A DNA stretch of 64,000 nucleotides from NCBI RefSeq assembly GCF_008274585.1, contig NZ_VTRT01000004.1, positions 248,001-312,000 of the forward strand, given 5' to 3'. Both the position numbers and the translations under genes were made by a program. How positions within the stretch are numbered: position 1 is the first letter of the stretch; every line of letters starts with the position of its first letter. Below, piece after piece: positions 21,201-38,638 of this stretch. Origin of the DNA: Pedobacter sp. BS3. Lineage in GTDB: Bacteria; Bacteroidota; Bacteroidia; Sphingobacteriales; Sphingobacteriaceae. The notes under the pieces were generated by a model. It was not told the DNA's origin. It was given only the letters and a program-made list of their open reading frames with translations, and did no database searches.

Positions 21201-22307
21201 AACCACCCTATAGTTTAACTTATTATCGGTATTGCCAAAAGAAATGGTCTTAAAGGCTTCGTTGTCTCTGTTATAATAATTGAGACCGTCTGCCCAGGTA
21301 CCCAGCCACATATCGCCCCTGGAATCGCGGATAATTTTATAGATGGAGTTTTGACTTAAACTGTTTGAATTGTTATCGTCGTGCACCAGGTGTTTTAATT
21401 CGGAATGTTCAGGGTTTAATATGTAAAGTCCCGAATAACTTCCTATCCATAAGTTTCCCGAAAGGTCTTCGCAGATACTCCGCACGGCGGTGGTAATTGC
21501 TTTTTCGCCCTTGAATTTGAAGTCTACAAAACTCCGGGTTTGGTTATCATATAAGGCCAATCCCTGTTCATAGCCTAACCATATCGTATTTTTCTGGTCT
21601 ACGTATAGTGTAGGCAAATCATTGAGATGAATATTATTGTTTTCCTCAGGGTAATTCAGGTGCCTGAAAGTTTTGTTATTCGGGTTGTAGATATCGATAT
21701 ACCTTGTGCTGCATATCCAAATGTTATTGTCCCTGGTTTTCAGAAAGTAACGGGTTTTATCATCGCTTAACGAGTTGGAATTATTGCTTTGATGCTTTAT
21801 CCGCTTAATTTCATTGGTCTTGATGTTGATTTGAATAATACCATTATTGGTTGCAGCCCATAGCAGGTTGTTGTTAATCTGCATTATTCCCCGTATAATA
21901 TTGTCTGTAATGTTATTCTGTCCGTCCGAGTGTTTATACCGGATGAACTTATCAGTCTTGGGATTGTATTTATTTAAGCCGATCTGGGTGCCTATCCATA
22001 AATTACCATAGCTGTCTTCATAAATAGCATGAATGTTGTTGTTGCTTAAACTTTCAGGATCGCTTAAAATATGTTTATAGACTATAAATTTATTGCCATC
22101 AAATTTGTTAAGTCCGTCTCTGGTGCCAAACCATAAATAGCCTTTTTTATCCTGAAGAATAGCCATTACAGAACGTTGGGATAGTCCGTTGGCTGATGTA
22201 AAGTGTTGAAATTTAAAGTCGTTCTGTATACTCGCTATATCCTGGGCTAATAGGCATGGAATACCCCCTAAGATAAATAGAACACAAAAAATGAAACGAG
22301 CTTTCAT
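18213..22307 (-). CDS. Hybrid two-component system sensor/regulator (HTCS) of the PUL
   Basis: A 1364-residue one-protein phosphorelay. It has a signal peptide (1-21) and a periplasmic sensor of about 14 Reg_prop propeller repeats (GYLWFGTRDGLNKF-type, ~30-680). A Y_Y_Y domain (~695-770), one membrane helix (~780-800), HisKA with H839 (VSHDFRTPLTLI) and an HATPase (~940-1050) follow. A receiver domain has its phospho-Asp near 1155 (LIISDIQMPVMDG), and the protein ends in an AraC-type HTH (~1260-1360). HTCS proteins sense polysaccharide fragments in the periplasm and activate the adjacent PUL. The inverted site pair at 29080-29227 is its likely target. The full domain set is intact. Confidence 0.95.
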   Translation of the reverse strand: MKARFIFCVLFILGGIPCLLAQDIASIQNDFKFQHFTSANGLSQRSVMAILQDKKGYLWFGTRDGLNKFDGNKFIVYKHILSDPESLSNNNIHAIYEDSYGNLWIGTQIGLNKYNPKTDKFIRYKHSDGQNNITDNIIRGIMQINNNLLWAATNNGIIQINIKTNEIKRIKHQSNNSNSLSDDKTRYFLKTRDNNIWICSTRYIDIYNPNNKTFRHLNYPEENNNIHLNDLPTLYVDQKNTIWLGYEQGLALYDNQTRSFVDFKFKGEKAITTAVRSICEDLSGNLWIGSYSGLYILNPEHSELKHLVHDDNNSNSLSQNSIYKIIRDSRGDMWLGTWADGLNYYNRDNEAFKTISFGNTDNKLNYRVVSGMAEDLNGNLWIGTEGGGLNFYNRKTQRLTYYKNDPNNSNSLSANNVKSVIIDHNQNIWIGIHDGGLNFLNPGKKPFEFKKIDFPKASNVPLKEYKVLTLLEDKNGNIWIGTLTGGLIFYDVRQQLLSKIDKDIKSIMSIVQTEDPDILLIGGDSGLETVNIHTKTRNKITLKKTSKDNPPPYVNCIFVDNFNNYWVGTEGEGVYMYDPKHRKTKTYGIKEGLPNDIIYGILADNNGNIWISTNNGISRLNVESNSIKNYNQFDGLQGNEFNYGSFFKTRDKKLFFGGTNGLTYFNPNDIRKNAFVPQIDITNIEVNNTPYTKITDSVSTITLNYNENNFSIDFTALSYMHPEKNEFAYILEGNDKKWNYVGTQRKAVYTNIKAGNYVFKVKGTNNDGVWNETGDAIHIKVLPAPWRTWWAYLIYLTVCGGIFLYIRKLILLRIKERKEKEKSEQINQLRLQLFTDVSHDFRTPLTLIIGPLEKMIRENLGNSYIRQQHEIMLKNARMLLQLVNQILDFRKSESGKLTLQASKNNIVLFTKEIKRSFDALAEKKNIKYQLITNHENIQVWFDKPKLKNILFNLLSNAFKFSDDDSEVTITISTTSKKINSKLVNYVKISVVNFGSVIPEEHIHLIFDQFYQLDNKKKSLGSGIGLSLTKRLVELHKGKITAKSSEAKGTRFSILLRLGNEHLSAGECINEPEFVDEDNVFQIDTASDNQPETGQSISSVNTYREDIQSLLIVEDNADLQRFIKEIFIDKYNVFVAGNGEQAITIAHQNAIDLIISDIQMPVMDGFELCHHIKTTLLTSHIPVILLTAKTSSIHQEKGYYTGADAYITKPFNASILEIRVDNLLKTRASLIRKFKQDTILEPKKLTITSPDEIFLEKAINMVEQNITNPDFNAGMFIDQMNMSRTVVYTKLKALTGQNLSTFIRTIRLKKAGLMITQTNMNVSQIAYEVGFNDLKYFRECFKEFFKVTPSEYKRNAQENYSSYNA

Positions 22308-22809: not shown

Positions 22810-23988
22810 CTACAACCCTTTCTCTTTTAAGCGTGTAAGTGCTTCAATATAATAATAATCGGCATAGTTTAAAGGTACGTTTATTTCATTTCCGTGGGGG
22901 AGGCTTCCAACGCTGTGCATTAATATAAAATTTCCGTTTTCTCTGGGTTTGGCAGTATAGGCATCGCCTGACAGTGAGTTTAAAATATGTGTTGCGTTGT
23001 GCAGGTATTTATTGCCGGTATAATTGCTTAGCTCCAGCAGTGCTGATGCTATGATGGCCCCGGAGGAAGCGTCCCTGGGTTCATTCGGAATATTTGGCGC
23101 ATTGAAATCCCAGTACGGAACCCCGTCTTCCGGATAGTTAGGATGGTTCAGGATAAAGTTTGCAATCTTTTCAGCGAAATCAAGATACTTTTTATCTTTT
23201 GTGTACCTGTAGCACATGGTATAGGCATATAAGCCCCAGGCCTGGCCGCGGGACCAGGCACTTTCATCGGCATAGCCTTGTGCCGTGACCTTGCTCACAA
23301 CTTCACCGGTTTCAGGGTTGTAATCCAATACATGATAAGAGCTGCCATCCGGCCTGAAATGATTCCTCATGGTAGTATTGGCATGAGTTATGGCAATGTT
23401 TCTATAAATGCTGTCTCCGGTAATGTTTGATACTTCGAATAATAGTTCCAGGTTCATCATGTTGTCTATAATTACAGGAAACTTCCAGCCCCGTTCCGCC
23501 TGCCAGTTACCCACCACGTCCCAGCTTTGGATGCAGCCTACGTTTTTATTAAAGCGTGTGATCAATGAATTTGCTGCGTCTATCATTACCTGTTTGTACT
23601 CATTTTCCCCGGTTATTCTGTAGGCTTTTCCATAAGAATTGTTGAAAATGAATCCCAGGTCATGGTCGTTTGTGAGATTTTTATGGTGTTTAAATATTTT
23701 CTGCATGGTAATAGCCGCTTCTTTCCATTTCTCATCCTTTGTTCTTTCGTATATCATCCAGCAGGTTCCCGGCCAGAAGCCTTCTGTCCAGTCATACGGA
23801 GTTTCTATCCAGCGGATTGCTCCGTTTTTGTCAACGCTTCTGGGGATGTTGTTTGCTTTCATTGAAAGTGTACGCAGGCCGGTCAATTGTCGCTCACTTT
23901 TTTCTAATCGTATTTCGCTGTCGGTTTTTGATTTACAAGCTAAAATGGTTAGGGAAAGTAATAGTAAGGTGGATTTAATAATGTTCAT
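22810..23988 (-). CDS. Unsaturated glucuronyl hydrolase, GH88 lipoprotein
   Basis: A 392-residue (alpha/alpha)6-barrel enzyme. A lipobox LTILAC gives lipidation at C18, so it is membrane anchored. Catalytic-type aspartates are D110 (NDHDLGFIF) and D175 (IIDNMMNLELLF), matching the two Asp residues of characterised GH88 proteins. WSRGQAWGLYAY and LPLNYADYYYIEALTR are further family blocks. It hydrates and removes the 4,5-unsaturated uronic acid from oligosaccharides made by polysaccharide lyases. It fits the two heparinase II/III-type lyases of this locus and lies between the HTCS and the first lyase, 70 bp after the lyase gene. Confidence 0.94.
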   Translation of the reverse strand: MNIIKSTLLLLSLTILACKSKTDSEIRLEKSERQLTGLRTLSMKANNIPRSVDKNGAIRWIETPYDWTEGFWPGTCWMIYERTKDEKWKEAAITMQKIFKHHKNLTNDHDLGFIFNNSYGKAYRITGENEYKQVMIDAANSLITRFNKNVGCIQSWDVVGNWQAERGWKFPVIIDNMMNLELLFEVSNITGDSIYRNIAITHANTTMRNHFRPDGSSYHVLDYNPETGEVVSKVTAQGYADESAWSRGQAWGLYAYTMCYRYTKDKKYLDFAEKIANFILNHPNYPEDGVPYWDFNAPNIPNEPRDASSGAIIASALLELSNYTGNKYLHNATHILNSLSGDAYTAKPRENGNFILMHSVGSLPHGNEINVPLNYADYYYIEALTRLKEKGL

Positions 23989-24058: not shown

Positions 24059-27000
24059 TTATTGTTTTATTAATTTTTTTGTAGTTGTAATTCCGTTGCT
24101 GTTGGTAACCTGAATGATATATACACCTGTTTTCACCTGTTGTAAATCCAGGGTAATGGTAGCCGTTTTGTAGGTTTTATCTAAAATGCAGGTCCCGGTG
24201 CTGTTGTATAGTTTAAGGTTTGCCGCCTCCTGGGCCGGGTTAATATTTTGTAAGGTAAGCGTTTCTGTAAAAGGGTTAGGGTATATGATAGCTTGCCGCC
24301 CTGTTTTTGGCATTGCCTTTTCAGTGCTTTCGGGATATTGAATGGAAAGCGGTTGTTCGGTATAGATCACCTTGAACACAAAACCGGTAACCCTGATGTT
24401 CCCCGAACTTCCGCTGTTGAATACGGAAGCCAGGTCGTCATCCGTTTGGCCGCCAGGTAAGATGATATTAAGGTCTTCAACGTTTACAAAGCCCGAGCCT
24501 GAAGAAAGGATTACATTGGCGGAAGAACTTGGACCACCAAATGTTTTTTTCTTCGAGGTGTCATTCCTGTTTACAACGGTGCCTATCCTGTTGCCGGTGG
24601 CTAAGTTTACCTTTATTTTTGCCAGTTGCATATCCACTGTCTCAGGCAAGTACAGCGTGTTTAATCCTAAGCGGTATCCTTCATTAGGGTCTATACCGTT
24701 ACTGGCGCCGCCCCTGATACCAAGTTCTCCGGTAGCGCTTCTGTCTATGCCTGCCGCAGTAAGCAAATTACCATAATTCGCACCCGTGGTAGTATTGGTA
24801 GTTCCCATTCCCGCCCATTTGAAATAGAATTTTTTGTTCATGGCGGTGGCGATATCTGTTCCACCGTACACGTTCCACGCGTACTCGGTAGAAATACCGC
24901 CTATGCTGGCCTTTCCCGAAGCGTCTGTATGTAATTCTGAAGTATCGTAGTACAAGGCATCGCCTTCTTTGCCCGTAACCGGATTAGGCAGTTCCAGCAG
25001 GATGTAATTGACCGGCTCTACAGATGATGGAGGTACTTCGGCACCATCTGTTAGCTTTACGGTAAAAGTTACGGTTTGGTTAGCAGGTATGGTGGCCTCA
25101 AACCCAACCATTACTGAGCCTGGATTTTTGCGTTCGTAAGTGGCAGATGGAAAGTACGTTACAGGGTCTGTTGAGCGGTTGGCAGCCAGGGTAAACGTAA
25201 CCGCCGGGTTGGAGCAAAGCACCTCCAGCTCTACCGTTTTACCACCTTGCGTAAGTTTTAATTTAGATGAGCTCAGGGTTTCAACCAGTGCAGTTGTTGC
25301 CATATTCCAATACAGGTTTATGGGTTGTGCGCCATTATCAATATGGTCTTTGATCTCCAGGTATGCGTTATTTACAAGGTAAATGCTTCTGTCTATGGCA
25401 TTTAATTCATTGTTTAATCCTATCAGACCTTTTAAATCCAGTTTAGCGCCCCGTTTTGCATCAGTATCGTAAGTTTCTGTTATAACAGCTTTACCGTTGG
25501 CCTTGTGGTGCTGCCAGGTGCTTTCTGTAGTTTTTTTAATAGACAGGGTGTTGTGGCTCAGGTTGCTTATCCTGAAAATATTCCACCTGGCCGAATTTTG
25601 AGAAAAGTCATTATCGGCGCCCGGAGGAGTTATGCCTGCTTTTATCGCATCGTAATCTTCTTTTCCAAAATCTGTTGTCCAGCGTAACCCTTGCGAATCA
25701 TATACAAAAGATCCCCCGTCCATGTGGGCATGACTGTAGTTAGGAGTGCCCGCCTTTACACCCATGTATTTTCCATTGGAACCTTGCCACGCTGTACGAA
25801 CTAATGCTACCGGTTGGGTTCCATACCCGTACCATAATTTTGATTGGGGAGATGCCAGGTTATCCAGGCTGATATCTTTTCCATAGATCAGGGTTATGGG
25901 CAGAAACCGGGAATCCTCTGAAAAATCGCTGGCATATCGCCCGCTTTGCATAAGCTCTTTTTCTGTAGACAGAATAGATGGGTTGTTCAGTTTTTTTGCC
26001 ATCCATAGCGTGGGAGGGAGAGGAGTACGTTTGTCTGTACAATCACTGTAGTTGAAATATAAGGATGACGTACCTGTTACGTATTGCATGTATTCTGCAG
26101 ACTCTAAGAAACCGGGTGTGTATGTTAACCGCTTGATGCCTTCATGATTCTGGCCATAAATTCTCTCAAGCGCCGATAGCATCAAAACTTCGTAGGTAGT
26201 GCCATAAGACCAATACATGGCGCCTTCCTGATAATTACCATTGGCATAGGTATCCATAGCATTAGGGTTTTTTATCAGGATCCTGTTAAGGATATATTTT
26301 GCTTCGGTATCCATTTGCGTTGTTCCATCGCCTAAAATGGCCAATGCCCCATACGTTAGTCCGCTAATACACACCTGGTTCCAATTGGAAGTCATATCCC
26401 AAAATGCACTTGTTTTTTGGGTAAGGAAAGCATAGTTCAGTATTTTTTCACGGGCTTTTTGCCGTGTAGTTGCCGATAGATCGTTGTACAGCCAATCGTA
26501 CCCGATAGAAACGGCAAAGCACATTTCTGCAACATCTAAACTATAGGTTACCCAATCCGGAAAATTGCAAACGGTGTTTATTACACTTTCAGCTTTGGTT
26601 AGATACGAAGTATTATGCGTCATCCTGTAAGCATAAGACAAATAGAATATCTGTTTAATTGCATCTCTGGAAGTTTCCAGTATCCTGTTGCTGCTGTTGG
26701 GACTGTACACCAGCGTAGGTGCCGATAAAAAAGCGCTGGCTTGCGCCATAATATAAGCATGAACGGAGCTATACTCGGGTGATTGGGCTATAAGCGTCTG
26801 GATAGCTGTTTCTTCCCCCTGCTTAAGTAATAGTCTTGGGTGAGACAGATTAGTAATAACAGCGGGATTGAAAATATTGGTCAGTACTTTCAGCTCTACC
26901 TGTGTAATTCTGAAGCCACTGGGAATGGTTGAATTACCAAAGACTGATACAATGGCATCGTTAACCTCTCCGCCGGTAACGTACAGGTTAAAAGAGGATA

Positions 27001-27625
27001 CATCAATAATCCCGGCACCACTTGTAAGAGCGTAATCTATTCCCGGGATTCCGGAATTGCCGAAAATAATCCGTTTGGAAGGATTTAACCGGCTCACGAT
27101 CATCCCTGTTTCATTGGCCGCATTCAGATCGGTTACTCCGATTTTAGTAATTTGTATAGCCGCTGTAGAATTCAGGTTGGTTAAGTCGAGCCCGAAATAA
27201 AAACCTTCGCCCGGATCTATGCCGTTGCCTCCTCCTCCGCGTATTCCTAACTGGCCGCCAGCGGCTCTGTCTATTCCCGCGGGAGAAAGCATTTTTCCAA
27301 AGTCATTGCCTTCAGTAGTATTAACACTGGCCATGCCTCCAAACGTTATTGCAAACGTTTTGTTCAATGCGCCTGTTGGGGTAACCGTAGATGCCGCGAC
27401 ACTCCAATCATCGCTGCTATTGCTATTGTAATAAGAAGTATTACCCGAAGCGTCTATCTGGAGTACAGAAGCATCGGTATACCAGGAGTCTCCCTCAGAC
27501 CCTCCGGGTAAAGGCGTAAGCGTAATGGTGTTTTGCGCATATCCTGTACAAATAAGCAGAAAGAAGAAAAACATCGTCATTAACAGATATTTTTCTTCAA
27601 GACTGTTGGTAATGTTCTTTTTCAT
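24059..27625 (-). CDS. Heparinase II/III-type polysaccharide lyase with two flanking modules and T9SS signal
   Basis: A 1188-residue multidomain protein. Order: signal peptide (~1-30), module A (~32-246), alpha/alpha toroid (~262-600; HPRLLLKQGEE, MTSNWNQVCISGL, YQEGAMYWSYGTTYE), heparinase II/III beta-sandwich (~615-870) with NYSHAHMDGGSFVYD (catalytic His region near 632), module B (~876-1085) and a type A T9SS sorting domain (YPNPF..., ~1115-1188). It should be exported across the outer membrane by the type IX system and cleave uronic-acid polymers by beta-elimination. Modules A and B are homologous to each other and to parts of two other PUL proteins. The exact PL family cannot be settled by eye. 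Confidence 0.88.
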   Translation of the reverse strand: MKKNITNSLEEKYLLMTMFFFFLLICTGYAQNTITLTPLPGGSEGDSWYTDASVLQIDASGNTSYYNSNSSDDWSVAASTVTPTGALNKTFAITFGGMASVNTTEGNDFGKMLSPAGIDRAAGGQLGIRGGGGNGIDPGEGFYFGLDLTNLNSTAAIQITKIGVTDLNAANETGMIVSRLNPSKRIIFGNSGIPGIDYALTSGAGIIDVSSFNLYVTGGEVNDAIVSVFGNSTIPSGFRITQVELKVLTNIFNPAVITNLSHPRLLLKQGEETAIQTLIAQSPEYSSVHAYIMAQASAFLSAPTLVYSPNSSNRILETSRDAIKQIFYLSYAYRMTHNTSYLTKAESVINTVCNFPDWVTYSLDVAEMCFAVSIGYDWLYNDLSATTRQKAREKILNYAFLTQKTSAFWDMTSNWNQVCISGLTYGALAILGDGTTQMDTEAKYILNRILIKNPNAMDTYANGNYQEGAMYWSYGTTYEVLMLSALERIYGQNHEGIKRLTYTPGFLESAEYMQYVTGTSSLYFNYSDCTDKRTPLPPTLWMAKKLNNPSILSTEKELMQSGRYASDFSEDSRFLPITLIYGKDISLDNLASPQSKLWYGYGTQPVALVRTAWQGSNGKYMGVKAGTPNYSHAHMDGGSFVYDSQGLRWTTDFGKEDYDAIKAGITPPGADNDFSQNSARWNIFRISNLSHNTLSIKKTTESTWQHHKANGKAVITETYDTDAKRGAKLDLKGLIGLNNELNAIDRSIYLVNNAYLEIKDHIDNGAQPINLYWNMATTALVETLSSSKLKLTQGGKTVELEVLCSNPAVTFTLAANRSTDPVTYFPSATYERKNPGSVMVGFEATIPANQTVTFTVKLTDGAEVPPSSVEPVNYILLELPNPVTGKEGDALYYDTSELHTDASGKASIGGISTEYAWNVYGGTDIATAMNKKFYFKWAGMGTTNTTTGANYGNLLTAAGIDRSATGELGIRGGASNGIDPNEGYRLGLNTLYLPETVDMQLAKIKVNLATGNRIGTVVNRNDTSKKKTFGGPSSSANVILSSGSGFVNVEDLNIILPGGQTDDDLASVFNSGSSGNIRVTGFVFKVIYTEQPLSIQYPESTEKAMPKTGRQAIIYPNPFTETLTLQNINPAQEAANLKLYNSTGTCILDKTYKTATITLDLQQVKTGVYIIQVTNSNGITTTKKLIKQ
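24370..25000 (-). other. Repeated ~210-residue module, copy B (inside lyase)
   Basis: Encodes residues ~876-1085 of the lyase. Conserved core: EGDALYYDTSELHTDASG near the start, then AGIDRSATGELGIRGG, NGIDPNEGYRLGL and a final FKV strand. Related copies lie at 26888-27532, 28272-28900 and 38018-38635. Confidence 0.8.
26888..27532 (-). other. Repeated ~210-residue module, copy A (lyase N terminus)
   Basis: Encodes residues ~32-246. It shows EGDSWYTDASVLQIDASG, AGIDRAAGGQLGIRGG, NGIDPGEGFYFGLDL and a final ELKV strand. It is most like the standalone copy at 28272-28900. Confidence 0.8.
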
Positions 27626-27680
27626 GGTGTTTATTTTTTTGGCTAGTGCGGTAAGGAATATTATCCGGTTTTCTACAGGA

Positions 27681-27713
27681 AGGATGTCTAAATGATCACG
27701 TTTTAGACATCCT
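27681..27713. repeat. 12-bp-stem hairpin between two PUL genes
   Basis: AGGATGTCTAAA and TTTAGACATCCT flank a 9-nt loop, 13 bp after the stop of the upstream minus-strand gene (27726-28982) and 56 bp before the lyase start codon. There is no T-tract, so it is more likely an mRNA stability or attenuation element, or a protein site, than a terminator. Confidence 0.65.
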
Positions 27714-27725
27714 CTTTGAGCTTAG

Positions 27726-28982
27726 CTACCTCTTAATTAGCTTATGAACTTCAGAAACGCCTTCTCCCTGCAGTTTAACCAGGTAAATGCCAGGTGTATA
27801 ATGGCGTAAATTGATTGTTCCTTGGGTGGCATTTTGATCCACCGGAGTAGTTTGTAATAGTTTACCCTGCATATTTGTTAAAGCAAGTGTATGGTAAATA
27901 CCTTCTTGGAATAGTACGTTTACCTCGTTATCAGTTGGGTTAGGAAATATGTTGAAAGTTGAGGTTTGAACGTTAAACGTTGCCGTTTTGACGCCTAATT
28001 CTGTTTGTTTGCCATCGTTATCAACCTGTACCAGCTTGTAATAATTAATGCCGTTTAGCGCCTTTCGGTCGTAAAATCCGTATGATTTCGGTGTGTTGCT
28101 GCTGCCTGCGCCCGGTAAGGTCGCAATGGAAGTAAATGTGCTGCCATCGCTGCTGCGCAACACCGTAAATTCTTTGTTGTTTTGTTCAGATAGCGTTTCC
28201 CACTGTAGCTTAACGCCCTGTGCCTGGGTAGTTGCTGTAAAGCTGGCAAGGCCAACAGGAAGCGAGCTTAGGGCTACTACCTTTAGTTCCAGCTTTGTAA
28301 TTCGCCAATTGCTGGCCAATTCTGCTGGCGTATTATTAAATACCGAGACAATAGCGCTATTAGCGCTTCCGCCTGCTACGTACAGGTGTAACGAGGATAC
28401 ATCCAGCGTTCCTGCACCACCTGTAAGGGTGCTGTTTCCAAAATTAATCCGCTGAGCAGGATCTAACAGGCTTACCACGATGCCTGTTTCGCCGCTCGCC
28501 GCCAACTGTGCTACTGAAATTTTGGTAATCTGTACGGCAACGTCGGCGCCCAGGTTACTTAGATCAAACCCGAAATAATAGCCTTCGTTATTGTCTATGC
28601 CATTAGTTGTGCCGCGTATTCCCAACAAGCCACTCCCGTCTCTGTCTATGCCTCCGGCGGTAAGCATTTTGCCATAGTTACTGCCCTCGGTGGTATTAAC
28701 CGTTGCCATGCCTCCCCAATTAATTGTAAAGGTTTTATTCAGCGCACCGGTCTGGGTAATGGTTTCGGCCGATACAGTCCAATCATCGCTGCCACTGCTG
28801 TTATAGTAAGAAACCACACCCGAAGCATTTACCTGAAGTGTGGAAGCATCGGTATAAAGGGCGTCGGCTTCTGAACCTGTAGCTGAAGGTGTAAGCGTAA
28901 TGGTCTGGGCATTACTTTGAGCTATGCCGCTAAAAAGAAAAGCAATAGCAACAATTAGTTTTGGTGTGTAGTTTTTTTTCAT
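27726..28982 (-). CDS. T9SS-secreted accessory protein with the repeated module
   Basis: 418 residues: a signal peptide (~1-26), one copy of the repeated module (~28-237; EADALYTDASTLQVNASG, GGIDRDGSGLLGIRG, NGIDNNEGYYFGFDL), an FnIII-like linker domain (~240-335; VGLASFTATTQAQGVKLQWET, YYKLVQVDNDGK) and a T9SS sorting domain (~340-418; FNIFPNPTDNEVNV). There is no catalytic domain. It is the first gene of the minus-strand arm of the PUL, 100 bp upstream of the lyase. The likely role is polymer binding at the cell surface or in the medium. I do not recognise the module as a named family. Confidence 0.82.
   Translation of the reverse strand: MKKNYTPKLIVAIAFLFSGIAQSNAQTITLTPSATGSEADALYTDASTLQVNASGVVSYYNSSGSDDWTVSAETITQTGALNKTFTINWGGMATVNTTEGSNYGKMLTAGGIDRDGSGLLGIRGTTNGIDNNEGYYFGFDLSNLGADVAVQITKISVAQLAASGETGIVVSLLDPAQRINFGNSTLTGGAGTLDVSSLHLYVAGGSANSAIVSVFNNTPAELASNWRITKLELKVVALSSLPVGLASFTATTQAQGVKLQWETLSEQNNKEFTVLRSSDGSTFTSIATLPGAGSSNTPKSYGFYDRKALNGINYYKLVQVDNDGKQTELGVKTATFNVQTSTFNIFPNPTDNEVNVLFQEGIYHTLALTNMQGKLLQTTPVDQNATQGTINLRHYTPGIYLVKLQGEGVSEVHKLIKR
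28272..28900 (-). other. Repeated ~210-residue module, standalone copy C
   Basis: Encodes residues ~28-237 of the T9SS accessory protein. Here the module stands without a lyase, which argues for an autonomous folding and binding domain rather than a structural part of the lyase. Confidence 0.8.
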
Positions 28983-29079
28983 ATCCTTTAGGTTTAATAT
29001 TTGGTTAAGCGTCTGCTGTATTCACAAAGTTTTCAGCAGATTATTCTACGCAAAGTAGTATGTTTCCCAAAGCTAAAGC

Positions 29080-29096
29080 GGGGAATAAGCGTCTAA
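29080..29096 (+). promoter_or_regulatory. Candidate HTCS binding site, left copy
   Basis: GGGGAATAAGCGTCTAA, 98 bp upstream of the start codon of the minus-strand accessory gene (28982). It is inverted relative to the right copy at 29210-29227, from which it differs by one missing T. The mirror-like placement between divergent PUL operons suggests binding sites of the PUL regulator. Confidence 0.6.
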
Positions 29097-29209
29097 ATGT
29101 GGGGTGTAGAATGTCTGATTAAATAGTTGTTGATGTAGCGTTTCAGGCGTTCTTTATAAATTTGGGCTTTTAAGTTGAAAGGATAGCTTTATTCAAAATA
29201 CCCCCTTAA

Positions 29210-29227
29210 TTAAGACGCTTATTCCCC
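29210..29227 (-). promoter_or_regulatory. Candidate HTCS binding site, right copy
   Basis: TTAAGACGCTTATTCCCC, the inverse of the left copy, 95 bp upstream of the ATG at 29322. HTCS proteins characterised in Bacteroides bind repeated sites upstream of PUL promoters, so the position is typical. Confidence 0.6.
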
Positions 29228-29321
29228 TTATTTAAAGTTCTCATATTTTGATTTTTGTGTAAACGCATAATTATAAACCTAAAAGCCATAACCAGGGCTT
29301 TACCTTATTAAATGATGAAGT

Positions 29322-30911
29322 ATGAAAAATAAACAGCTACTTTTATTACTATTTTGTTACCTGGCAATAGTTTCATGTAAAGATGCTCTTAAAGCAGATT
29401 TAGAGAGTATTCGTAATCCCTCAGATTTAAAATATGTAGAGATTACTGATGCAAGAGAAAGCAGAGCGATTACTACCGCTGCCCCTACCGTTCAAACCGG
29501 CGGGCTTATTCCCACATTCGAATTAGTTAGTATTGTTAAAAGCGATGGTACGGTGCTGGATCAATCGTATTTACAGTATGTAACTATCGGACAAGCCACC
29601 ACTAAAAGCATAGCGGTTGATGAGGGAATGGTAGATGCCAATGGAAACCCGTTAACCTCGGTAAATGTAACCAACTCGGCCAGTAACGGCATTATTACCA
29701 TTGCCGCCGGGCATAATTTTACTGCGGGCGATTATTACTTTACCATTAAGGTTACTACCCAGGCCAATGGGCAGGTATATTCAACCGTATTTGACAAAGC
29801 CTTTCATTTACATATTGGCCCGCTGTTGCCCTCTAACTTAATTTATTCCCCCAAAAACCAAAACCTGGTGTATGGCGCAGGCAGTAAAACAAGCGCTCCG
29901 ATACTGCCCAACTCAAACCCCGATGTATACTTTGAACTTGGAAATTATACGGATAAGCTAAGCATTGATAAACAAACGGGCGTTATTTCGCTTGCCTCAA
30001 ACTATGTATATACTGCCCGCGAAGTTTTACAACCAACAGTAAGAGTGGTAAGCAATATAAGCGGCGAGGCCATTGCGTTTGAAAACAAGTTAACCGTGGT
30101 AATTACTGATACACCAGAGGTAATGCCTGTAGAAACCATTTATGTTTTCTATCCTACGCTTAATGTAAACGCGGCATATCCCACCGGCGGTGTTGGCTAT
30201 ACAGTACAAACAGATATCGCGGGTCTGTCAACAAGAATCTGGGGCAATAGAACCAATTCAATTGCTTCTTATTTAGTAGCGCCTACAGAACGGCCTGCCA
30301 CTAACACCGGGCAAACTATTCTGGAAACATGTACTTTCTCATCGGCATCAGCTACTAACCCCGTCAGTGCCTGGATGGTAACCACTACGCAGGATCTCAC
30401 TCCTTATCAATACGGCTATCAGTTGTCTTTTAACTATTATTATATGCCTGCTTACCAAACCTATATGGCAGACGGACGTACACCAACAGATCTGGAGGTG
30501 TATATATCAACTGATTATACCGGTGGTGATATCCAGGATGCGAATGGTAACTGGCTAAACGGTACATGGACGAAAGTAAATGCCAGTATGAAATGTCAGC
30601 GGTCAGAAGGTCGTAGCGGTAGCAACTCGATAGGCGCTCCCTGGGGCACTGAATTTATAGGAACACCTTACCCCGGCGACCAGAAAGGCGCTGATCCTGA
30701 TGGCAGAAAAAATCTTGCTGCCGGAACATTCTATAATATATGGGTAAAATGCTCTTACGATATCAGTGTCTCCCAGCTTTCAAAAAACTTTACAGTAGCA
30801 TTTAAAGTGGCGTCTTATTTTGAGGGAGGCCTGCTGAATAATACAACAGCACCCGGAAGAGGAGGGTCTTATTTCATTTCAGATTTTTATTATAAAGCGG
30901 TTGAACATTAA
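29322..30911 (+). CDS. PUL surface lipoprotein (glycan-binding, DUF4958-like)
   Basis: 529 residues with a lipoprotein signal (YLAIVSC, Cys19 followed by KDA). It has all-beta composition, with at least two Ig-like segments: ~55-165 (a strand pattern ending AFHLHIGPLLP) and ~170-270 (NLVYGAGSKTSAPILPNSNP, LSIDKQTGVISLASNY). A C-terminal domain of ~270-529 is rich in Tyr and Trp. Similar proteins head SusCD operons of heparinase-containing PULs, which I recall as DUF4958. It probably sits on the cell surface and captures the polymer for SusCD. It is the first gene of the plus-strand arm, 174 bp before susC, with a small hairpin at 30925-30942 in that gap. Confidence 0.75.
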   Translation: MKNKQLLLLLFCYLAIVSCKDALKADLESIRNPSDLKYVEITDARESRAITTAAPTVQTGGLIPTFELVSIVKSDGTVLDQSYLQYVTIGQATTKSIAVDEGMVDANGNPLTSVNVTNSASNGIITIAAGHNFTAGDYYFTIKVTTQANGQVYSTVFDKAFHLHIGPLLPSNLIYSPKNQNLVYGAGSKTSAPILPNSNPDVYFELGNYTDKLSIDKQTGVISLASNYVYTAREVLQPTVRVVSNISGEAIAFENKLTVVITDTPEVMPVETIYVFYPTLNVNAAYPTGGVGYTVQTDIAGLSTRIWGNRTNSIASYLVAPTERPATNTGQTILETCTFSSASATNPVSAWMVTTTQDLTPYQYGYQLSFNYYYMPAYQTYMADGRTPTDLEVYISTDYTGGDIQDANGNWLNGTWTKVNASMKCQRSEGRSGSNSIGAPWGTEFIGTPYPGDQKGADPDGRKNLAAGTFYNIWVKCSYDISVSQLSKNFTVAFKVASYFEGGLLNNTTAPGRGGSYFISDFYYKAVEH

Positions 30912-31085
30912 GCGTCTTTCATGATCAGGATACTGATCCTGAAAAGTTCAATGATGGATTAATCCACTTCGGCAATATACCAAACAGATATTGTCGAAGC
31001 AGGATTAACTGAGAAAGTAATATATAAATAAACGTTTAGACAGGTAAAGAAGCCTGCAGATTTAGTAAAATCTAATTTTAGAAGT

Positions 31086-34000
31086 ATGAAATTTATCAAA
31101 TTATTATTGCTCTTATTCTTTATTTCCACATTGCCAGCTCTTGCACAGAAAAGTGTAAAAGGTAATGTTAAAGACGCTGAAGGTGTGCCTCTTGCCGGTG
31201 TTAATGTTACGGTAAAAGGTACTGCCCGGGGAACCTCGACCAATGGGGACGGAAATTATGTGATTAATAATGTAAAGCCATCTGATATTCTGGTGTTCTC
31301 TTACCTTGGGTTTCAAACCCTTGAAAAGATGGTGATAGAACAACAAACAATTAACGTTACGCTTAAAATGGAAGATGTAAAGCTGGGAGAGGTTGTTGTT
31401 GTTGGATACGATGTTGTTAGAAAAAGCGATTTGACAGGCGCTGTATCTGTAGTAAACCCGAAAGATCTGGCTGCTACGGCTACGGCTAACTTTGACCAGG
31501 CTCTGGCGGGCAGGGTTGCCGGTGTACAGGTTACATCGAGCGACGGCACGCCCGGAAGCCCTCTTAATATTGTGATCAGGGGTGGAAACTCTATAACGGG
31601 CGATAACTCGCCATTATATGTTGTTGATGGAGTTCCTCTTGAGGATTTTGATCCGTCAAGTATCAATACACGTGATATTAAGACCTTTGATATTTTAAAG
31701 GATGCCTCGGCAACAGCCATTTACGGGTCTCGCGGTGCTAACGGTGTGGTGGTAATTACTACCCAGGGCGGCCGGAATGACGGGAAAACAGACATCAATG
31801 TAGGTGTATCATCCTGGATACAAACAATTCCAAACAGGCTGGAAGTAATGACCCCTTACCAGTACGTAAAATATCAGCAAACGCTGGCTTATGCTAACGA
31901 TAGCTATGTACCTGCTACCAATGTGGGTTTGTTTGCCAATAAATGGGGCGACCCTGAACTATACAGAAACGCTGCCGGTATCAATTGGCAGGATGAGATT
32001 TTTCAGACAGCCCTTGCAAACAATTATGTAGCTTCTTTGAGGGCAGGCAATAAAAAAACTACTCTGTTTTATAGCGGTAACTATCTGAAACAGGAAGGAA
32101 CGCTTATCACCACCGATTTTAGAAAGATAAATAACAGGCTGAAATTTACCCATAAACTTAACGATAATTTAGAAGCCAATGGTCAGGTAGAATACAGCCA
32201 TAACAATTACAACGGTTTGGTGGTCTCGGGTAATACCAGAAATTCTGTTATCAGGGATGCCGTATCTTTCAGACCGGTAAATCCTGTAAACTGGAGCGCC
32301 GATGATGAGGATGAAGACGAAGAATTAATCTCCAGTCAGGATCCCTATTTGTATGACCCGGTAAAAACATTAACCAACACCGACCGTACACGTACAGACG
32401 ACATACTTTCAGGAACGTTGGGGTTGAATTATAAGTTTCTGAAGAAATTCGATTTGAGCGTAATGGGGAATTATAGAACATCAATGACAGAAAGTACGCT
32501 CTTCTATAAACAAAATACACAGGAGGCTACCAGAACGAACAGGGGGATAAACGGCTCAATAACTGATACCAGATATAATATTTTATCTACCTCTAACACC
32601 TTACGGTTCAAAGACCAGAAAGGTAAACATAATTACAGCGCTTTGGTAGGGTTTGAAGCTCAATACAGAGGGTTTAGAGCTTCTTCATTACAAAATACCA
32701 ATTTACCAACCGACGAATTTGGTGTTGATAACCTTGGTATTGCAACAACATCTACCATAGCAACTTCCAATGCTTCAAGAAACTCTCTATTGTCCTTTTT
32801 TGGAAGAGTGAACTATACATACAACGATCGGTATTTAGCAACTGTCAACTTTAGGGCTGATGGATCTTCTAAATTTAGAAAAGAGAACCGGTGGGGATAT
32901 TTTCCATCGTTCTCATTTGCCTGGAGACTGTCGGAAGAAGATTTTTTAAAACCGGTTAACGCGATCTCTGATCTGAAGTTAAGAGCGGGCTGGGGAATGA
33001 CCGGAAATAACCGTATTGGTGATTTTGACGCGTATAATTTATTTACGGTTAATTCAACAAGTGGATATGTTTTAGGCGAGAACCAGACCTATTCGCCGGG
33101 AGCTTATCAAAGCAATATGGCTGTGCCTGATTTACGCTGGGAAACTACAGCTCAGACTAACGTAGGATTAGATTTAGAGTTGCTCAAACGGTTTAACCTT
33201 ACCGTAGATTACTACAACAAAAACACAAAAGATCTCCTGTTAAATGCTGAGATGGCACCAAGTACAGGTTTTGACAGGGTACAACAGAACGTAGGAAAAG
33301 TCTCCAATCGAGGTATGGAATTCACTTTTACTTCTCAGAACATCAAAAACAAAAATTTCGGATGGACTACTAATTTTAATATTTCCTTCAACAAAACAAA
33401 AACCCTCAAATTAAACAGCGGTCAAACGGAAATGCTGACAGACCCGGGATGGGATCTACAGTTTATGCAAACGGAGTACCAGTATGTTACAAGGGTAGGA
33501 CAGCCTGTTGGTATGATGTATGGTTTGGTGTTTGATGGTATTTACCAATTGGATGATTTTGTACAGGCAAATGGTGTTTACCAATTAAAAGACGGTGTGC
33601 CTTCCTATCAGACGACAATGAGACCCGGAATGGTGAAGTTTAAGGATATTTCGGGGCCAAACGGCGTTCCCGATGGTCTGATAAACAATTATGATCGCAC
33701 TATTATCGGTAACCCATACCCGAAACACACCGGGGGCTTGTTCAACACGTTCAGGTATAAATCCTTTGATTTTCAGTTTTTGCTACAATGGGCGTATGAT
33801 TTTGATATCCTGAACGGCAATAAATCAGAATTTGGAAATATTTATCAGCAAGGCCGGAACGGATTAACCTCACTCGCCAGCATTTGGACACCCACCAATA
33901 CCGAAACCTCTGTCGGTGGCATGCGGTATGATGGCGTTAACTTATTAACACCCTTTGGTTACAGATTAGATTCACGCGATATTGATGATGGCTCATATCT

Positions 34001-34235
34001 GAAGCTGAAAACGGTAGTTTTAGGGTACAATTTACCTGGCAAATTGTTGAGGAAGCTTAACCTCAAAAAATGCAGGTTATTTGTCTCTGCCCAGAACCTG
34101 TATACCTGGACAAAATACGAAGGATATGATCCGGATGTTTCTGTTGGAAGGTACGGCGCATTAACCCCCAGGTTAGATTATTCCGCATACCCGCAAAGCT
34201 TAACGGTATCCGGGGGAATAGACGTTACATTTTAA
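31086..34235 (+). CDS. SusC/RagA-type TonB-linked outer-membrane transporter
   Basis: 1049 residues: a signal peptide (1-20), a carboxypeptidase-D-regulatory-like domain (~22-98), a plug (~115-230; VVVGYDVVRKSDLTGAVSVV, LNIVIRGGNSITGDNSPLYVVDG, ATAIYGSRGANGVVVITT) and a long beta-barrel ending ...SGGIDVTF. The length and motifs are typical of SusC. It imports oligosaccharides through the outer membrane with TonB energy and pairs with the SusD encoded 31 bp downstream. An acidic DDEDEDEE stretch lies near residue 405. Confidence 0.97.
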   Translation: MKFIKLLLLLFFISTLPALAQKSVKGNVKDAEGVPLAGVNVTVKGTARGTSTNGDGNYVINNVKPSDILVFSYLGFQTLEKMVIEQQTINVTLKMEDVKLGEVVVVGYDVVRKSDLTGAVSVVNPKDLAATATANFDQALAGRVAGVQVTSSDGTPGSPLNIVIRGGNSITGDNSPLYVVDGVPLEDFDPSSINTRDIKTFDILKDASATAIYGSRGANGVVVITTQGGRNDGKTDINVGVSSWIQTIPNRLEVMTPYQYVKYQQTLAYANDSYVPATNVGLFANKWGDPELYRNAAGINWQDEIFQTALANNYVASLRAGNKKTTLFYSGNYLKQEGTLITTDFRKINNRLKFTHKLNDNLEANGQVEYSHNNYNGLVVSGNTRNSVIRDAVSFRPVNPVNWSADDEDEDEELISSQDPYLYDPVKTLTNTDRTRTDDILSGTLGLNYKFLKKFDLSVMGNYRTSMTESTLFYKQNTQEATRTNRGINGSITDTRYNILSTSNTLRFKDQKGKHNYSALVGFEAQYRGFRASSLQNTNLPTDEFGVDNLGIATTSTIATSNASRNSLLSFFGRVNYTYNDRYLATVNFRADGSSKFRKENRWGYFPSFSFAWRLSEEDFLKPVNAISDLKLRAGWGMTGNNRIGDFDAYNLFTVNSTSGYVLGENQTYSPGAYQSNMAVPDLRWETTAQTNVGLDLELLKRFNLTVDYYNKNTKDLLLNAEMAPSTGFDRVQQNVGKVSNRGMEFTFTSQNIKNKNFGWTTNFNISFNKTKTLKLNSGQTEMLTDPGWDLQFMQTEYQYVTRVGQPVGMMYGLVFDGIYQLDDFVQANGVYQLKDGVPSYQTTMRPGMVKFKDISGPNGVPDGLINNYDRTIIGNPYPKHTGGLFNTFRYKSFDFQFLLQWAYDFDILNGNKSEFGNIYQQGRNGLTSLASIWTPTNTETSVGGMRYDGVNLLTPFGYRLDSRDIDDGSYLKLKTVVLGYNLPGKLLRKLNLKKCRLFVSAQNLYTWTKYEGYDPDVSVGRYGALTPRLDYSAYPQSLTVSGGIDVTF

Positions 34236-34266
34236 AAAAAGCATTCGTTTTTAAATTATAATTACA

Positions 34267-35994
34267 ATGAAAAAAGAGAATCTATATATCGCGGCAGCTT
34301 TTTTAATCATTTTTACTTTGGCTGGCTGTAATAAATTTTTGGAGTTAGACCCGCAATCTTCCTGGAAAGATGAGTCTTTTTATGCTACTAAAGCGCAGGC
34401 AAATTTAGCTTTATCGGGAATTTATAACCAATTGGCTAAGACGGATGGTATATATGCGTACAAGTTCAACGTAACTTTAGAAGGCGGAACAGATGAATGC
34501 TATACCAATGATCCGGGTACAAGCTGGAACTCGGCAAAATACATGTATACTTCTTCGAGCGATGAAATTAAAATTACGTGGTTGGGATTTTATAGCTGCA
34601 TTCAATTAGTTAATCAGTTTGAGAAAAATCTGAAACCGGGTATTTTTACCACAGAAGAATATAATAAGCTGTTAGCCAAGGCCCGTTTTATGAGAGCTTT
34701 CGCCTATTTTAATCTGGCTAACTGGTTTGGGCCTGTTCCTTTAAGGTTAACCCCAAGCTCTTCACAGGAAGATAATAATCTGGCGCCGTCTCCGGTTTTT
34801 GACGTTTACAAGCAGGTAGAAAAAGATTTTTTATTTGCGGCAGAACATTTAAGCCATTCAAAAGATGCTGATTATATACCCGGCGAACCTAATAAAATGG
34901 CAGCACATGGTTTGTTAGCCCGTCTTTATTTAAAAATGGGCGGATATCAGCCATATTTATCGAATAATGAGGCTGCCTGTTATTTCGAGAACCCTCAGCA
35001 ATATTTTGATAAAGCCAGAGAGCAGTGTGAGATCATTATAAACGATGGCTGGCATCATATTGTGCCTTACGCTACAGACCCGAACAGCTACAGGAACCAT
35101 TTTTTATCCTACTTGCAAGACAAATACGATTTAAGAGAGTCGCTGTATGAAATTTCATTTGGAAACTTATACAGCTCAGGGATACAGGTTAGCGGTAGGT
35201 TAGGCAATATCAATGGCGTCGAGTTTGTAGGCACAGCAGGTATTCCCAGAGGCTTTGCTAATTTTAATGTGGGACTTCCGGTGTATCAGGTCTACTCGCT
35301 GGAAGATGCCAGAAGAACGTGGAGTATTGCAGGCTATAAGAATAATTATACCTCTGCTACAGCACAGTTTACCATGAAGTACATCTTCGATAATCCTTTA
35401 GACCAGGAATATGGCATTGGAAAATTCAGGAGATGGGAACCCACAGATATTGCTACCTTAAAATCAAAGGGAAGTATCGTGAATGCAGGCTACACCATTC
35501 TTAACAATACATCAGGGTCTGATACCGATCCTAATTTTACCAGCATTAATTTCCCGATTTTAAGATATTCGGATGTATTGTTGATGCACGCGGAAGCAAT
35601 CATCGGCGGCAGGTTTGGTACCGCCGATGCCAACGGGGAGGCGGTAAATAGCCTTAATATTGTAAGGGAGAGAGCCGGGTTAGATCCTTACAGTGGCAGT
35701 CTGAGCCATAATGATTTCTTTAAAGAACTTGTGGATGAGCGGTTGAGAGAGCTTTGTTTTGAAGGGCTTCGGAAGCAGGATCTGATCAGGTGGGATTTGC
35801 TGGAGGATAAATTACAGGAAACCAATGCTGCCATTAAAGGTTTCGCTACATATATTCCTACCAGTCAGTATCATCAAACATATTTAACGCCCGGAAATAA
35901 TTTTGACAGGTCAAAGCACTTACAATTACCTTATCCTTTACAGGAAACACAAATAAACACCAGTCTTCATCAAAGAACAGGCTCGGGCTGGTAA
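34267..35994 (+). CDS. SusD/RagB-family glycan-binding lipoprotein
   Basis: 575 residues with lipobox LAGC (Cys21) and the NKFLELDPQSSWKDESFYAT start typical of SusD. It carries TPR-like helices (LLAKARFMRAFAYFNLANWFG) and the C-terminal SusD motifs ILRYSDVLLMHAEA and ELVDERLRELCFEGLRKQDLIRW. It forms the lid of the SusC transporter on the cell surface and selects the oligosaccharide. It is followed after 22 bp by a lyase gene in the same operon. Confidence 0.97.
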   Translation: MKKENLYIAAAFLIIFTLAGCNKFLELDPQSSWKDESFYATKAQANLALSGIYNQLAKTDGIYAYKFNVTLEGGTDECYTNDPGTSWNSAKYMYTSSSDEIKITWLGFYSCIQLVNQFEKNLKPGIFTTEEYNKLLAKARFMRAFAYFNLANWFGPVPLRLTPSSSQEDNNLAPSPVFDVYKQVEKDFLFAAEHLSHSKDADYIPGEPNKMAAHGLLARLYLKMGGYQPYLSNNEAACYFENPQQYFDKAREQCEIIINDGWHHIVPYATDPNSYRNHFLSYLQDKYDLRESLYEISFGNLYSSGIQVSGRLGNINGVEFVGTAGIPRGFANFNVGLPVYQVYSLEDARRTWSIAGYKNNYTSATAQFTMKYIFDNPLDQEYGIGKFRRWEPTDIATLKSKGSIVNAGYTILNNTSGSDTDPNFTSINFPILRYSDVLLMHAEAIIGGRFGTADANGEAVNSLNIVRERAGLDPYSGSLSHNDFFKELVDERLRELCFEGLRKQDLIRWDLLEDKLQETNAAIKGFATYIPTSQYHQTYLTPGNNFDRSKHLQLPYPLQETQINTSLHQRTGSGW

Positions 35995-36016
35995 CCATAT
36001 AAAAAAACAAATTGAA

Positions 36017-38638
36017 ATGATAGATATTCCGTCAAAAAAACAAAGAATACAACGTGTGGTAAAATATGCTTTCATTATAGGTGTCTCGCTATGCTGCATC
36101 CGGGTAAATGCGCAAACTGCCGCCGTTACACAGTCATATAATTATTCAAAAATAGCAGCGCATCCCAGGCTTTTATTAAGCAAAGGAGAGGAAAAGGATA
36201 TCAAAGCGTCGATTCAAAGAAACCCGGAGTTTAAAAAAATAGATACTTATATCATGCAGGTATCCGATCAGTTGCTCTCCGAACCGCCTTTGGTATATAA
36301 AAAAGAGGGCAAAAGACTGCTCGCTGTATCCAGGAAAGCGCTTACAAGGCTATACTATTTATCATACAGCTATCGGATGACCGGGGATAAAAAATATCTC
36401 GACCGGGCAGAACAGGAACTGAACGCCGTATGTGCGTTTGAGAACTGGAACCCATCGCACTTTTTAGACGTGGGAGAGATGTGTATGGCGGTTTCCATCG
36501 CTTATGACTGGCTGTATGATGATTTAAAGGAAACCACCCGGAAAAATGTTCGCAAAGCGATTATAGAAAAGGCCTTTGCCCCATCGTATGATCCAAAGGA
36601 TGCTAATGGGCAGCAAGCGGAAATTGCGGCGAAGTATTTACACGGCAATAACGATAACTGGTTTCTGGAAGCGCACAACAATTGGAACTCGGTTTGTAAC
36701 GCGGGTTTGGCAGTAGGCGCATTAGCCATTCTGGAAGATGATAAACAGGAATCCATTGCCATTATTGAGCGGACGTTAAAATCCAACCAGTTAGCGTTAA
36801 AGTCGTATGCCCCCAACGGAAACTACCCGGAAGGGCCGGGGTACTGGAACTATGGCACTTCATTCCAGGTAATGCTTATCGCGGCGTTAGAAAGCGCCCT
36901 GGGTTCTGACAACGGGCTGTCGAAATCGCCGGGCTTTATGGAATCTGCCAATTACATGACGTTTGCTGCCGGCATATCGGGGAAATATTTCAATTATTAC
37001 GATTGTGGGTCATCTGCCGAGCCAAGTTCATCCATGTTCTGGTTTGCAAATAAAATGCATGATCCATCTTTGGTATTTTTAGAAATTCCGATGATCGATA
37101 AAGGAGCCTATACGCGGCATGACGCTTCTGATGCAGAAAGGTTTTTGCCCGGTACACTTGTTTTTGGCAAAGACCTCACACTATCTAAAACCCAGTCTCC
37201 AACTAAAAAAGTATTTACAGGCAAGGGAATTACACCGGTATGTATTGTCCGCACAAGCTGGAAAGCAGGCGAAGGCCAATATTTTGGGATAAAAGGCGGA
37301 ATGGCCGGTGATCCGCATGGCCACATGGATGCGGGAACTTTTGTATATGATACCGGGAACCTGAGATGGGCTATGGATTTTGGTATGCAAAGCTACTCTA
37401 CGTTGGAATCTAAAGGCGTAGATTTATGGAACATGGATCAAAATTCTCAAAGATGGGATATTTTCAGGTATAATAACCTGAACCATAATACGCTAACAAT
37501 AAATAATCAACGGTATAACGTTAAAGGGAAAGCGGAGATTATAGAAACCTTTGACAGCAAAAAAGAAACAGGCGCCAAAGTCGACCTTAAACCGGTTTTA
37601 AACCTTGCCGACGAGTTAAAAACGGCGACCAGGAAAGCGGTGATAGTAGAAGATGCTTATCTTAAAATAGAGGATTTTATTGAAACTAATGCTAAGCCTG
37701 TTGATTTAAGGTGGAACATGGTTACGCCGGCCTCCGCAGAGATTGTAGATAAAAACACCATCAGGCTTTCCCAGCAGGGCAAAACCATGTTGTTGAAATT
37801 TAACTCCGATATTCCGTTTAAACTGGTTATAAGACCCTCGGAAAACCCTAAAGAGTATAAATGCGAATATGGTAATTATAAATACGGCGATTATAACCTG
37901 CCAAACAAAGGGACTGTAATGGTAGGCTTTGACGCTAAAATTCCGGCAAACAAAGCCGGAAAATTTACGGTGACTTTTGCAGAAGGTAAACAAGAGCTAT
38001 TATTAAATAAAAATACATTTATTCTTGATGCTCCCAACCCAAGCTCAGCATCAGAAGGCGATCAGGTATTTCATGATATTTCACCAATAGGCATTAGTAG
38101 TTCAGGCGTTTTATTTCCCCTTGAAAACCCGGATTGGATTCCTTATGGAGAGACAACCATCAAAAAACTGTTAGATAAATCATTTAAGTTCAGGATTGAT
38201 GCTAAGAGGATAACCCCAACAGGCCTGGCAGATGCCGGTATAGACAGGTCTGCTGACGGGCAGTTAGGCGTTAGGGGAGGAGAAAGTAGTGGGATAGATA
38301 AAAATGAAGGATATATATTAGGCCTGGATTTAACAGGATTAGATCCGTCTGTACAATTCGGGCTTACAAAGGTGGCCTTCACTTTTTTAGATGCGGAGGA
38401 ATCATGTACCCTTGTGAATCGCCAGGTTCCGGGGAAGATGATGATCTATAAAGGAAGTGATAAAAAGGTAACTCAGGAAGTTAAGATGACTTCAAATAAT
38501 AGCAGGCAGTTTGTTGATGTTTCAAGCTTAGGTATTTCCCTTAAAGGAGGAAAAAACTACACTGAGATTTTGTCTTTATTTAATACGAGTGCGGGTGGCA
38601 GCTTTAGAATTGCCGGTTTTGAGCTTGTTGCGAAATAA
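36017..38638 (+). CDS. Heparinase II/III-type polysaccharide lyase with C-terminal module
   Basis: 873 residues. A basic N terminus and hydrophobic stretch (~15-33) form the signal peptide. The alpha/alpha toroid (~45-395) has NNWNSVCNAG (221-230) and YPEGPGYWNYG (Tyr276/Tyr279). The heparinase II/III beta-sandwich (~400-665) has GDPHGHMDAGTF (H434, H436), Tyr460 and LNHNTL (H490). A copy of the repeated module (~667-872) ends the protein. The Asn, Tyr and His sets match the catalytic scheme of this fold. It is homologous to the lyase at 24059-27625 but has no N-terminal module and no T9SS tail, so it is probably periplasmic or anchored differently. It is the last gene of the susCD operon. 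Confidence 0.9.
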   Translation: MIDIPSKKQRIQRVVKYAFIIGVSLCCIRVNAQTAAVTQSYNYSKIAAHPRLLLSKGEEKDIKASIQRNPEFKKIDTYIMQVSDQLLSEPPLVYKKEGKRLLAVSRKALTRLYYLSYSYRMTGDKKYLDRAEQELNAVCAFENWNPSHFLDVGEMCMAVSIAYDWLYDDLKETTRKNVRKAIIEKAFAPSYDPKDANGQQAEIAAKYLHGNNDNWFLEAHNNWNSVCNAGLAVGALAILEDDKQESIAIIERTLKSNQLALKSYAPNGNYPEGPGYWNYGTSFQVMLIAALESALGSDNGLSKSPGFMESANYMTFAAGISGKYFNYYDCGSSAEPSSSMFWFANKMHDPSLVFLEIPMIDKGAYTRHDASDAERFLPGTLVFGKDLTLSKTQSPTKKVFTGKGITPVCIVRTSWKAGEGQYFGIKGGMAGDPHGHMDAGTFVYDTGNLRWAMDFGMQSYSTLESKGVDLWNMDQNSQRWDIFRYNNLNHNTLTINNQRYNVKGKAEIIETFDSKKETGAKVDLKPVLNLADELKTATRKAVIVEDAYLKIEDFIETNAKPVDLRWNMVTPASAEIVDKNTIRLSQQGKTMLLKFNSDIPFKLVIRPSENPKEYKCEYGNYKYGDYNLPNKGTVMVGFDAKIPANKAGKFTVTFAEGKQELLLNKNTFILDAPNPSSASEGDQVFHDISPIGISSSGVLFPLENPDWIPYGETTIKKLLDKSFKFRIDAKRITPTGLADAGIDRSADGQLGVRGGESSGIDKNEGYILGLDLTGLDPSVQFGLTKVAFTFLDAEESCTLVNRQVPGKMMIYKGSDKKVTQEVKMTSNNSRQFVDVSSLGISLKGGKNYTEILSLFNTSAGGSFRIAGFELVAK
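38018..38635 (+). other. Repeated ~210-residue module, copy D (lyase C terminus)
   Basis: Encodes residues ~667-872: FILDAPNPSSASEGDQVFHD, AGIDRSADGQLGVRGG, SGIDKNEGYILGLDL, then FRIAGFELVAK. It is the most diverged of the four copies in its first third. Confidence 0.8.

Follow-up and report, generated by a model that had tools for sequence, protein, structure and literature searches.

A probable CBM-like module with a predicted beta-sandwich fold, tied to one kind of PL35 polysaccharide utilization locus

A module of about 210 residues is present in four copies, in three proteins of a single polysaccharide utilization locus (PUL), within the window, which is the whole stretch of 64,000 nucleotides that was analysed. 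The module is probably a beta-sandwich family resembling carbohydrate-binding modules (CBMs), unnamed in Pfam, NCBIfam and the PDB sequences, tied to one kind of PL35 locus and putatively engaged in binding. Most likely this putative binder helps PL35 lyases to hold acidic sugar chains. It would be a new CBM family if dbCAN agrees, the collections from which it is set apart here being Pfam, NCBIfam and the PDB sequences only, and no prior description of it was found in the open-licence PMC literature. The PUL is divergent, with P0002, P0001, a GH88 hydrolase and a hybrid regulator encoded on the minus strand and a surface protein, SusC, SusD and P0003 on the plus strand, as listed below.

18213 to 22307, minus strand: hybrid two-component regulator of the PUL (family scan)
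22810 to 23988, minus strand: GH88 unsaturated glucuronyl hydrolase (PF07470; best PDB match 3wiw, E 1.2e-102)
24059 to 27625, minus strand: P0001, 1188 aa, consisting of module, PL35-like lyase, module and T9SS tail
24062 to 24286, minus strand: T9SS type A sorting tail of P0001, residues 1114-1188 (PF18962 / TIGR04183)
24359 to 25012, minus strand: module copy 2, C-terminal, P0001 residues 872-1089
25022 to 26860, minus strand: PL35-like lyase core of P0001, residues 256-868, with the 8khv match at 261-866 and the active-site residues
26882 to 27529, minus strand: module copy 1, N-terminal, P0001 residues 33-248
27726 to 28982, minus strand: P0002, standalone module, 418 aa, with a linker region of about 100 residues and a T9SS tail at 345-418
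28269 to 28907, minus strand: module copy 3, in the standalone T9SS protein P0002, residues 26-238 (AlphaFold2 model 1)
28581 to 28652, minus strand: conserved core of copy 3, GIDRxxxGxLGIRG..NGIDxxEG, P0002 residues 111-134 (conservation over 21 copies)
29322 to 30911, plus strand: surface protein of glycan-binding type (resembles SGBP_BT4661, with a Pfam match under the cut-off; role deduced from its place in the locus)
31086 to 34235, plus strand: SusC-like transporter (named from sequence, place and synteny)
34267 to 35994, plus strand: SusD-like protein (named from sequence, place and synteny)
36017 to 38638, plus strand: P0003, 873 aa, PL35-like lyase (core 41-660) with a C-terminal module
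38000 to 38635, plus strand: module copy 4, C-terminal end of P0003, residues 662-873 (AlphaFold2 model 2)

A search of the whole genome with one copy returned exactly these four (E 5.3e-138 for the query itself, then 1.3e-71, 2.1e-37 and 1.1e-21), the other three being 63, 40 and 38 % identical to the query. The initial annotation had placed four copies of this size in these proteins, and both their positions and their N-terminal, C-terminal or standalone placement relative to the lyase cores were borne out by the domain architecture. The same holds for the sorting tails it implied: a type A C-terminal sorting domain marks P0001 and P0002 as T9SS cargo, and none was found on P0003 at E ≤ 1. 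The P0003 lyase is probably located in the periplasm.

In total, 21 module copies were found in 8 genomes, at pairwise identities of 25-81 %, with four in the window's genome, three each in G491, G916, G918 and G1068, two each in G495 and G917, and one in G1070. All 21 have SusC, SusD and PL35 genes as neighbours. GH88 was present in the fetched stretches of 7 of the 8 module-bearing genomes, and sulfatase genes in those of 4 of the 8 (G916, G917, G1068 and G1070). Genomes were scored with the module profile at E ≤ 0.001, in samples that overlap and that each count the genome at their centre. On this basis the module was present in 1 of 395 genomes of a phylum sample and 1 of 395 of a class sample (the window's own genome both times), 3 of 299 relatives, 4 of 149 genomes related to G916, 1 of 149 related to G918, 4 of 198 related to G1070 (which added no new one) and 1 of 18 genomes in the genus of G491. 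At E ≤ 1 the class sample yielded 13 of 395 genomes; the 12 further ones (E 0.015-0.57) were taken as chance, with no core-motif pattern and with frames read for 10 of the 12. Scanning the GTDB contig collection by pattern yielded 50 stretches, among them three relatives, two from Sinomicrobium and one from Mariniphaga anaerophila. Other candidates were rejected: 38 pattern stretches in viral contigs included no relative, a single phage match to the C-terminal copy (E about 1) was disregarded, as was the best PHROGs match (E 0.0059, a tail fibre family, for 1 of 16 copies), and the 20 plasmid records listed of 26 matching P0002 did so only over residues 227-418, which are linker and T9SS tail. 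The two modules of P0001 on their own matched nothing in the plasmids at E ≤ 10.

Alignment of the 21 copies upheld most of the proposed core motif. In GIDR, all four residues are present in 21/21 copies; in LG[IV]R, G is present in 21/21 and L and R in 20/21; and in GID..EG, the G, I, E and final G are invariant. The D of GID..EG falls below 90 %, being kept in the N-terminal (N) and C-terminal (C) classes but not in the P3 class. In the proposed start SEGD..Y.D, the E (19/21) and the last D (20/21) held, and the D of SEGD is less than 90 % conserved. It had also been suggested that LGV..G..N-ID patterns occur in other phyla, for which PDB sequences, Pfam and plasmids gave no support; searches with a peptide of the consensus core brought up neither a PDB chain at E ≤ 10 nor a Pfam family.

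The module is an add-on to a lyase core that is complete without it, and not a part of the enzyme, since related syntenic lyases end where it starts. The P0003-type lyases of G431, G555, G558 and Sino2 (Sinomicrobium G917) end 0-4 residues past the core, and those of G431, G555 and G558 adjoin the same surface-protein, SusC and SusD genes, in genomes with no module at E ≤ 1. No module remnant was detected downstream of the four module-less lyase genes, the best chance match having E 0.09. As is asked of a CBM, the module is a contiguous, discrete domain separable from the catalytic domain; the existence of syntenic PULs without it counts against the preferred CBM-like reading. On a tree of PL35 cores, the label 'module' requires three changes; this fits one gain and two losses, other three-change histories being possible. 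The tree comprises 43 proteins, 19 of them taken from loci that bear the module or are syntenic and 24 from other loci of the family; it leaves out further, mostly weaker, matches and has long branches outside the module clade. In a tree of the 21 module copies, the eight P3-type copies group together (support 100/99), as do the six C-terminal copies (86/94) and the five N-terminal copies (96/92) of P1-type lyases, and the two standalone copies fall with the N-terminal group (100/98), the Mariniphaga copy being a long branch of unsure placement. There are thus three position classes and a standalone form. The Mariniphaga P1-type lyase has no N-terminal module, and a standalone protein is encoded nearby with one gene between; fusion or splitting of the standalone protein and the P1-type lyase would be the simplest account.

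Both lyase cores are of PL35 type by sequence comparison, PL35 being a family shown elsewhere to cleave glycosaminoglycans (GAGs). The best PDB chain for each was GAGase II of PL35 (8khv), with E 2.4e-150 for P0003, aligned over the core length, and 5.6e-115 for P0001. Judged by the catalytic and Mn-site residues given for PL35 in the part of PMC12088678 that describes them, P0003 keeps catalytic N221, N222, Y276 and H434 and Mn-site H436, D438, D454 and H490, and P0001 keeps N414, Y471, H632, H634, D636, D652 and H691. Changes in P0001 are S413 for Asn191 (the first of the Asn pair), Y361 for His136, N313 for Arg87 and K662 for Glu431, and because of S413, Y361 and the other active-site changes its specificity may differ. 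The P1-type lyases of L005, L006 and L020, read by eye, also have SNWNQ, and that of L007 has NNWNQ.

The substrate of the PUL is likely a GAG, as suggested by the sulfatase matches of related loci. Three sulfatase genes flank the PL35 PUL in the related loci of G916, G917 and G1068 (L084, L085, L087, L088), and the three of G916 were the ones compared with the PDB. The best PDB row of the first was 'Arylsulfatase' 6hhm, which we take to be an ulvan sulfatase, followed by iduronate-2-sulfatases; that of the second was a GalNAc-6-sulfatase; and that of the third was 'Arylsulfatase A', with S1_15 sulfatases further down. The window itself has no sulfatase match between 17 and 42 kb. Elsewhere in the window, a phosphodiesterase-type gene at 41648-43297 has a weak Sulfatase match (E 3.4e-7), and a single gene at 46810-48813 encodes TIG domains and a NAGPA-type phosphodiester glycosidase. 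At 2164-4395, about 14 kb from the PUL regulator, a gene for a NAGLU-type alpha-N-acetylglucosaminidase carries all three NAGLU domains and could fit heparan sulfate use. A TIG-GH43 protein is encoded in three PULs, two without the module and one with it (L069 8361-9905, from a Pfam scan; L070 8518-10062 and L089 3633-5159, both by similarity), and this neighbour hints at a substrate other than plain GAG.

No known family was recovered for the module. In a Pfam/NCBIfam scan of 16 of the 21 copies every family stayed above E 0.01 (best values 0.048 and 0.045), and a profile of 16 copies matched nothing among PDB sequences at E ≤ 10, solved members of CBM15, CBM22, CBM35, CBM6 and CBM29 included. 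The fold was predicted to be a beta-sandwich in two AlphaFold2 models. Model 1, of the P0002 copy, was built from 11 sequences and reached pLDDT 85 and pTM 0.86 (five runs, pLDDT 64 to 85, only two of the five at 83 or above). Model 2, of the P0003 copy, was built from 6 sequences without the clade of the first copy and reached pLDDT 73 and pTM 0.73 (runs from 54 to 73). Its poor spot is the conserved core, with pLDDT 58 and 51 over residues 81-100. The two models share the order of the main strands, by eye and from the listed secondary structure, so that the folds of the copies agree in this respect; also by eye, model 2 differs in one additional short strand and in a short helix close to the core.

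In Foldseek searches with both models, the viral structure library included, no match reached E 0.001; CBM15 (1gny) was the first row for model 1 (E 2.5e-3) and ranked 50 for model 2 (E 0.16). The VIA list of model 1 is headed by 9q5u (Z 10.8, 145 residues aligned, rmsd 2.9 A, 12 % identity), the one match that stands out, followed by Ape1 and CBM15 at Z 7.7 and others from 7.5 down to 6.0. That of model 2 is headed by CBM15 1gny at Z 7.4, with 9q5u missing from the 50 listed rows. Titles naming a CBM or carbohydrate-binding domain make up 14 of the 50 rows listed for model 1 and 18 of the 50 for model 2, and the nearest folds beyond 9q5u include CBM15, 22 and 35, all below Z 8. Values of Z 6-7.7 are in the range that the tool calls common and may be due to chance, and since phage tail proteins and toxin domains, like esterases, appear at Z values similar to those of CBMs, these values alone say little beyond beta-sandwich. 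The absence of a fold family from the VIA lists does not exclude that family.

The module might instead belong to a CBM family already named in CAZy and missing from Pfam, NCBIfam and the PDB sequence set, which we consider rather unlikely. A table of PMC11122601 includes families CBM90 to CBM99, for almost all of which the fold is given as unknown, and a reference entry in PMC11943901 points to a chondroitin sulfate-specific CBM100. Against a named family stand the lack of any Pfam, NCBIfam or PDB-sequence match and the rarity of the module, which at E ≤ 0.001 was confined to the window's genome among the 395 of each broad sample. CBM100, for its part, is known from a PL29 lyase.

Conservation over the 21 copies points to a candidate site. 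Polar residues present in 20/21 or 21/21 copies (P0002 numbering) are D45, D113, R114, R123, E133, D140 and R227, and E38 is present in 19/21; four conserved polar residues lie in one glycine-rich stretch that spans three predicted strands. W68 is the sole aromatic residue at 21/21, with F85 and F215 at 20/21, and D130 and N127 are invariant within the N and C classes but not beyond them. The calculated pI is 4.1-5.2 for N-, C- and standalone-class modules and 4.5-7.0 for the P3 class. An acidic pI makes the module unlike a basic polyanion groove, and a metal-assisted site is a possible alternative to such a groove. The CBM reading of the initial annotation is favoured by the architecture and weakly by the fold, and disfavoured by the acidic character of the N-, C- and standalone classes.

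Under the preferred CBM-like reading, the module would bind the acidic polysaccharide of the locus or the lyase products, with the conserved polar cluster of D113, R114, R123, E133, D140 and R227 (P0002 numbering) as candidate binding site, possibly holding a metal ion. Three proteins would in this way stay attached to the chain while it is digested by PL35 cleavage and then by GH88: the lyase exported by the T9SS, the likewise exported binder and the other lyase, which is probably periplasmic. A narrower proposal, which we regard as doubtful, is that the module founds a new CBM family whose members recognize uronic acids by a site that is acidic and metal-assisted, not by a basic groove, and that the locus deploys it in three ways. 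Its ligand would then perhaps be the unsaturated ends made by the lyases; the module would be carried by the exported lyase, the probably periplasmic lyase and an exported enzyme-free binder; and this binder would have become fused to, or split from, the exported lyase.

In the main non-sugar rival, the module would serve as a spacer, for stability or for protein docking, holding the lyases to other PUL proteins with no sugar contact. The acidic composition is compatible with such a role, and many of the conserved residues are glycines, which would allow a structural role for the core motif. There are precedents in DUF1735 of PULs, proposed as a spacer in the relevant part of PMC11216935, and in the GAG lyase RiPL8, whose additional N-terminal domain had no effect on binding or activity according to PMC13027841. 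However, G1070 has one copy (in a possibly incomplete genome) and G495 only two copies of P3 type, which precludes docking among different module-bearing proteins as a general role; T9SS and non-T9SS lyases both carry the module with no obvious partner that they would share, and a spacer hardly explains the exported standalone form. A spacer or docking role, weakened by G1070 and G495, is judged improbable. A second catalytic or product-modifying domain, for which the conserved cluster with Asp, Arg and Glu might speak, is very improbable given that no enzyme family matched in sequence and that the module is absent from related lyases in syntenic loci.

Few CBMs for GAG chains are on record, CBM70 and CBM100 being those listed in PMC11122601. 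Being small, separable and also found on its own in nature, this module of PL35 lyases is a candidate for use as a probe or for the tuning of broad GAG lyases, and the syntenic loci with and without it provide a natural test of what an accessory module contributes to a complete enzyme.

Among known systems, the best structural match of model 1 is 9q5u of Aeromonas salmonicida, with the PDB title 'putative carbohydrate binding module and split domain'; it has no sequence match to the module, is absent from the model 2 listing and is itself only a putative CBM. No paper describing it was found. CBM15 (1gny, ranked third by VIA for model 1) and the jelly-roll CBMs 22, 35, 6, 29 and 86 share the beta-sandwich predicted for the module, but at 4-15 % identity, with no sequence match and at Z 5.7-7.7, possibly a mere common arrangement, and their listed single-domain chains have about 127-159 residues as against 210 for the module. 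PMC12077191 describes an A. hydrophila adhesin that carries a fucose-binding CBM; the passages on it do not name A. salmonicida, and this CBM was set aside. CBM70 and CBM100, binders of hyaluronan and chondroitin sulfate, are beta-sandwich GAG binders according to the table of PMC11122601; the module profile matched none of the PDB chains, which may include CBM70 and CBM100 entries. Solved PL35 chains, of 593-618 residues, align to the lyase cores only and leave the module uncovered, and the PL35 GAGases 8khv and 8khw and the chondroitinase 9o3q match both lyase cores of the locus, with the active site largely conserved.
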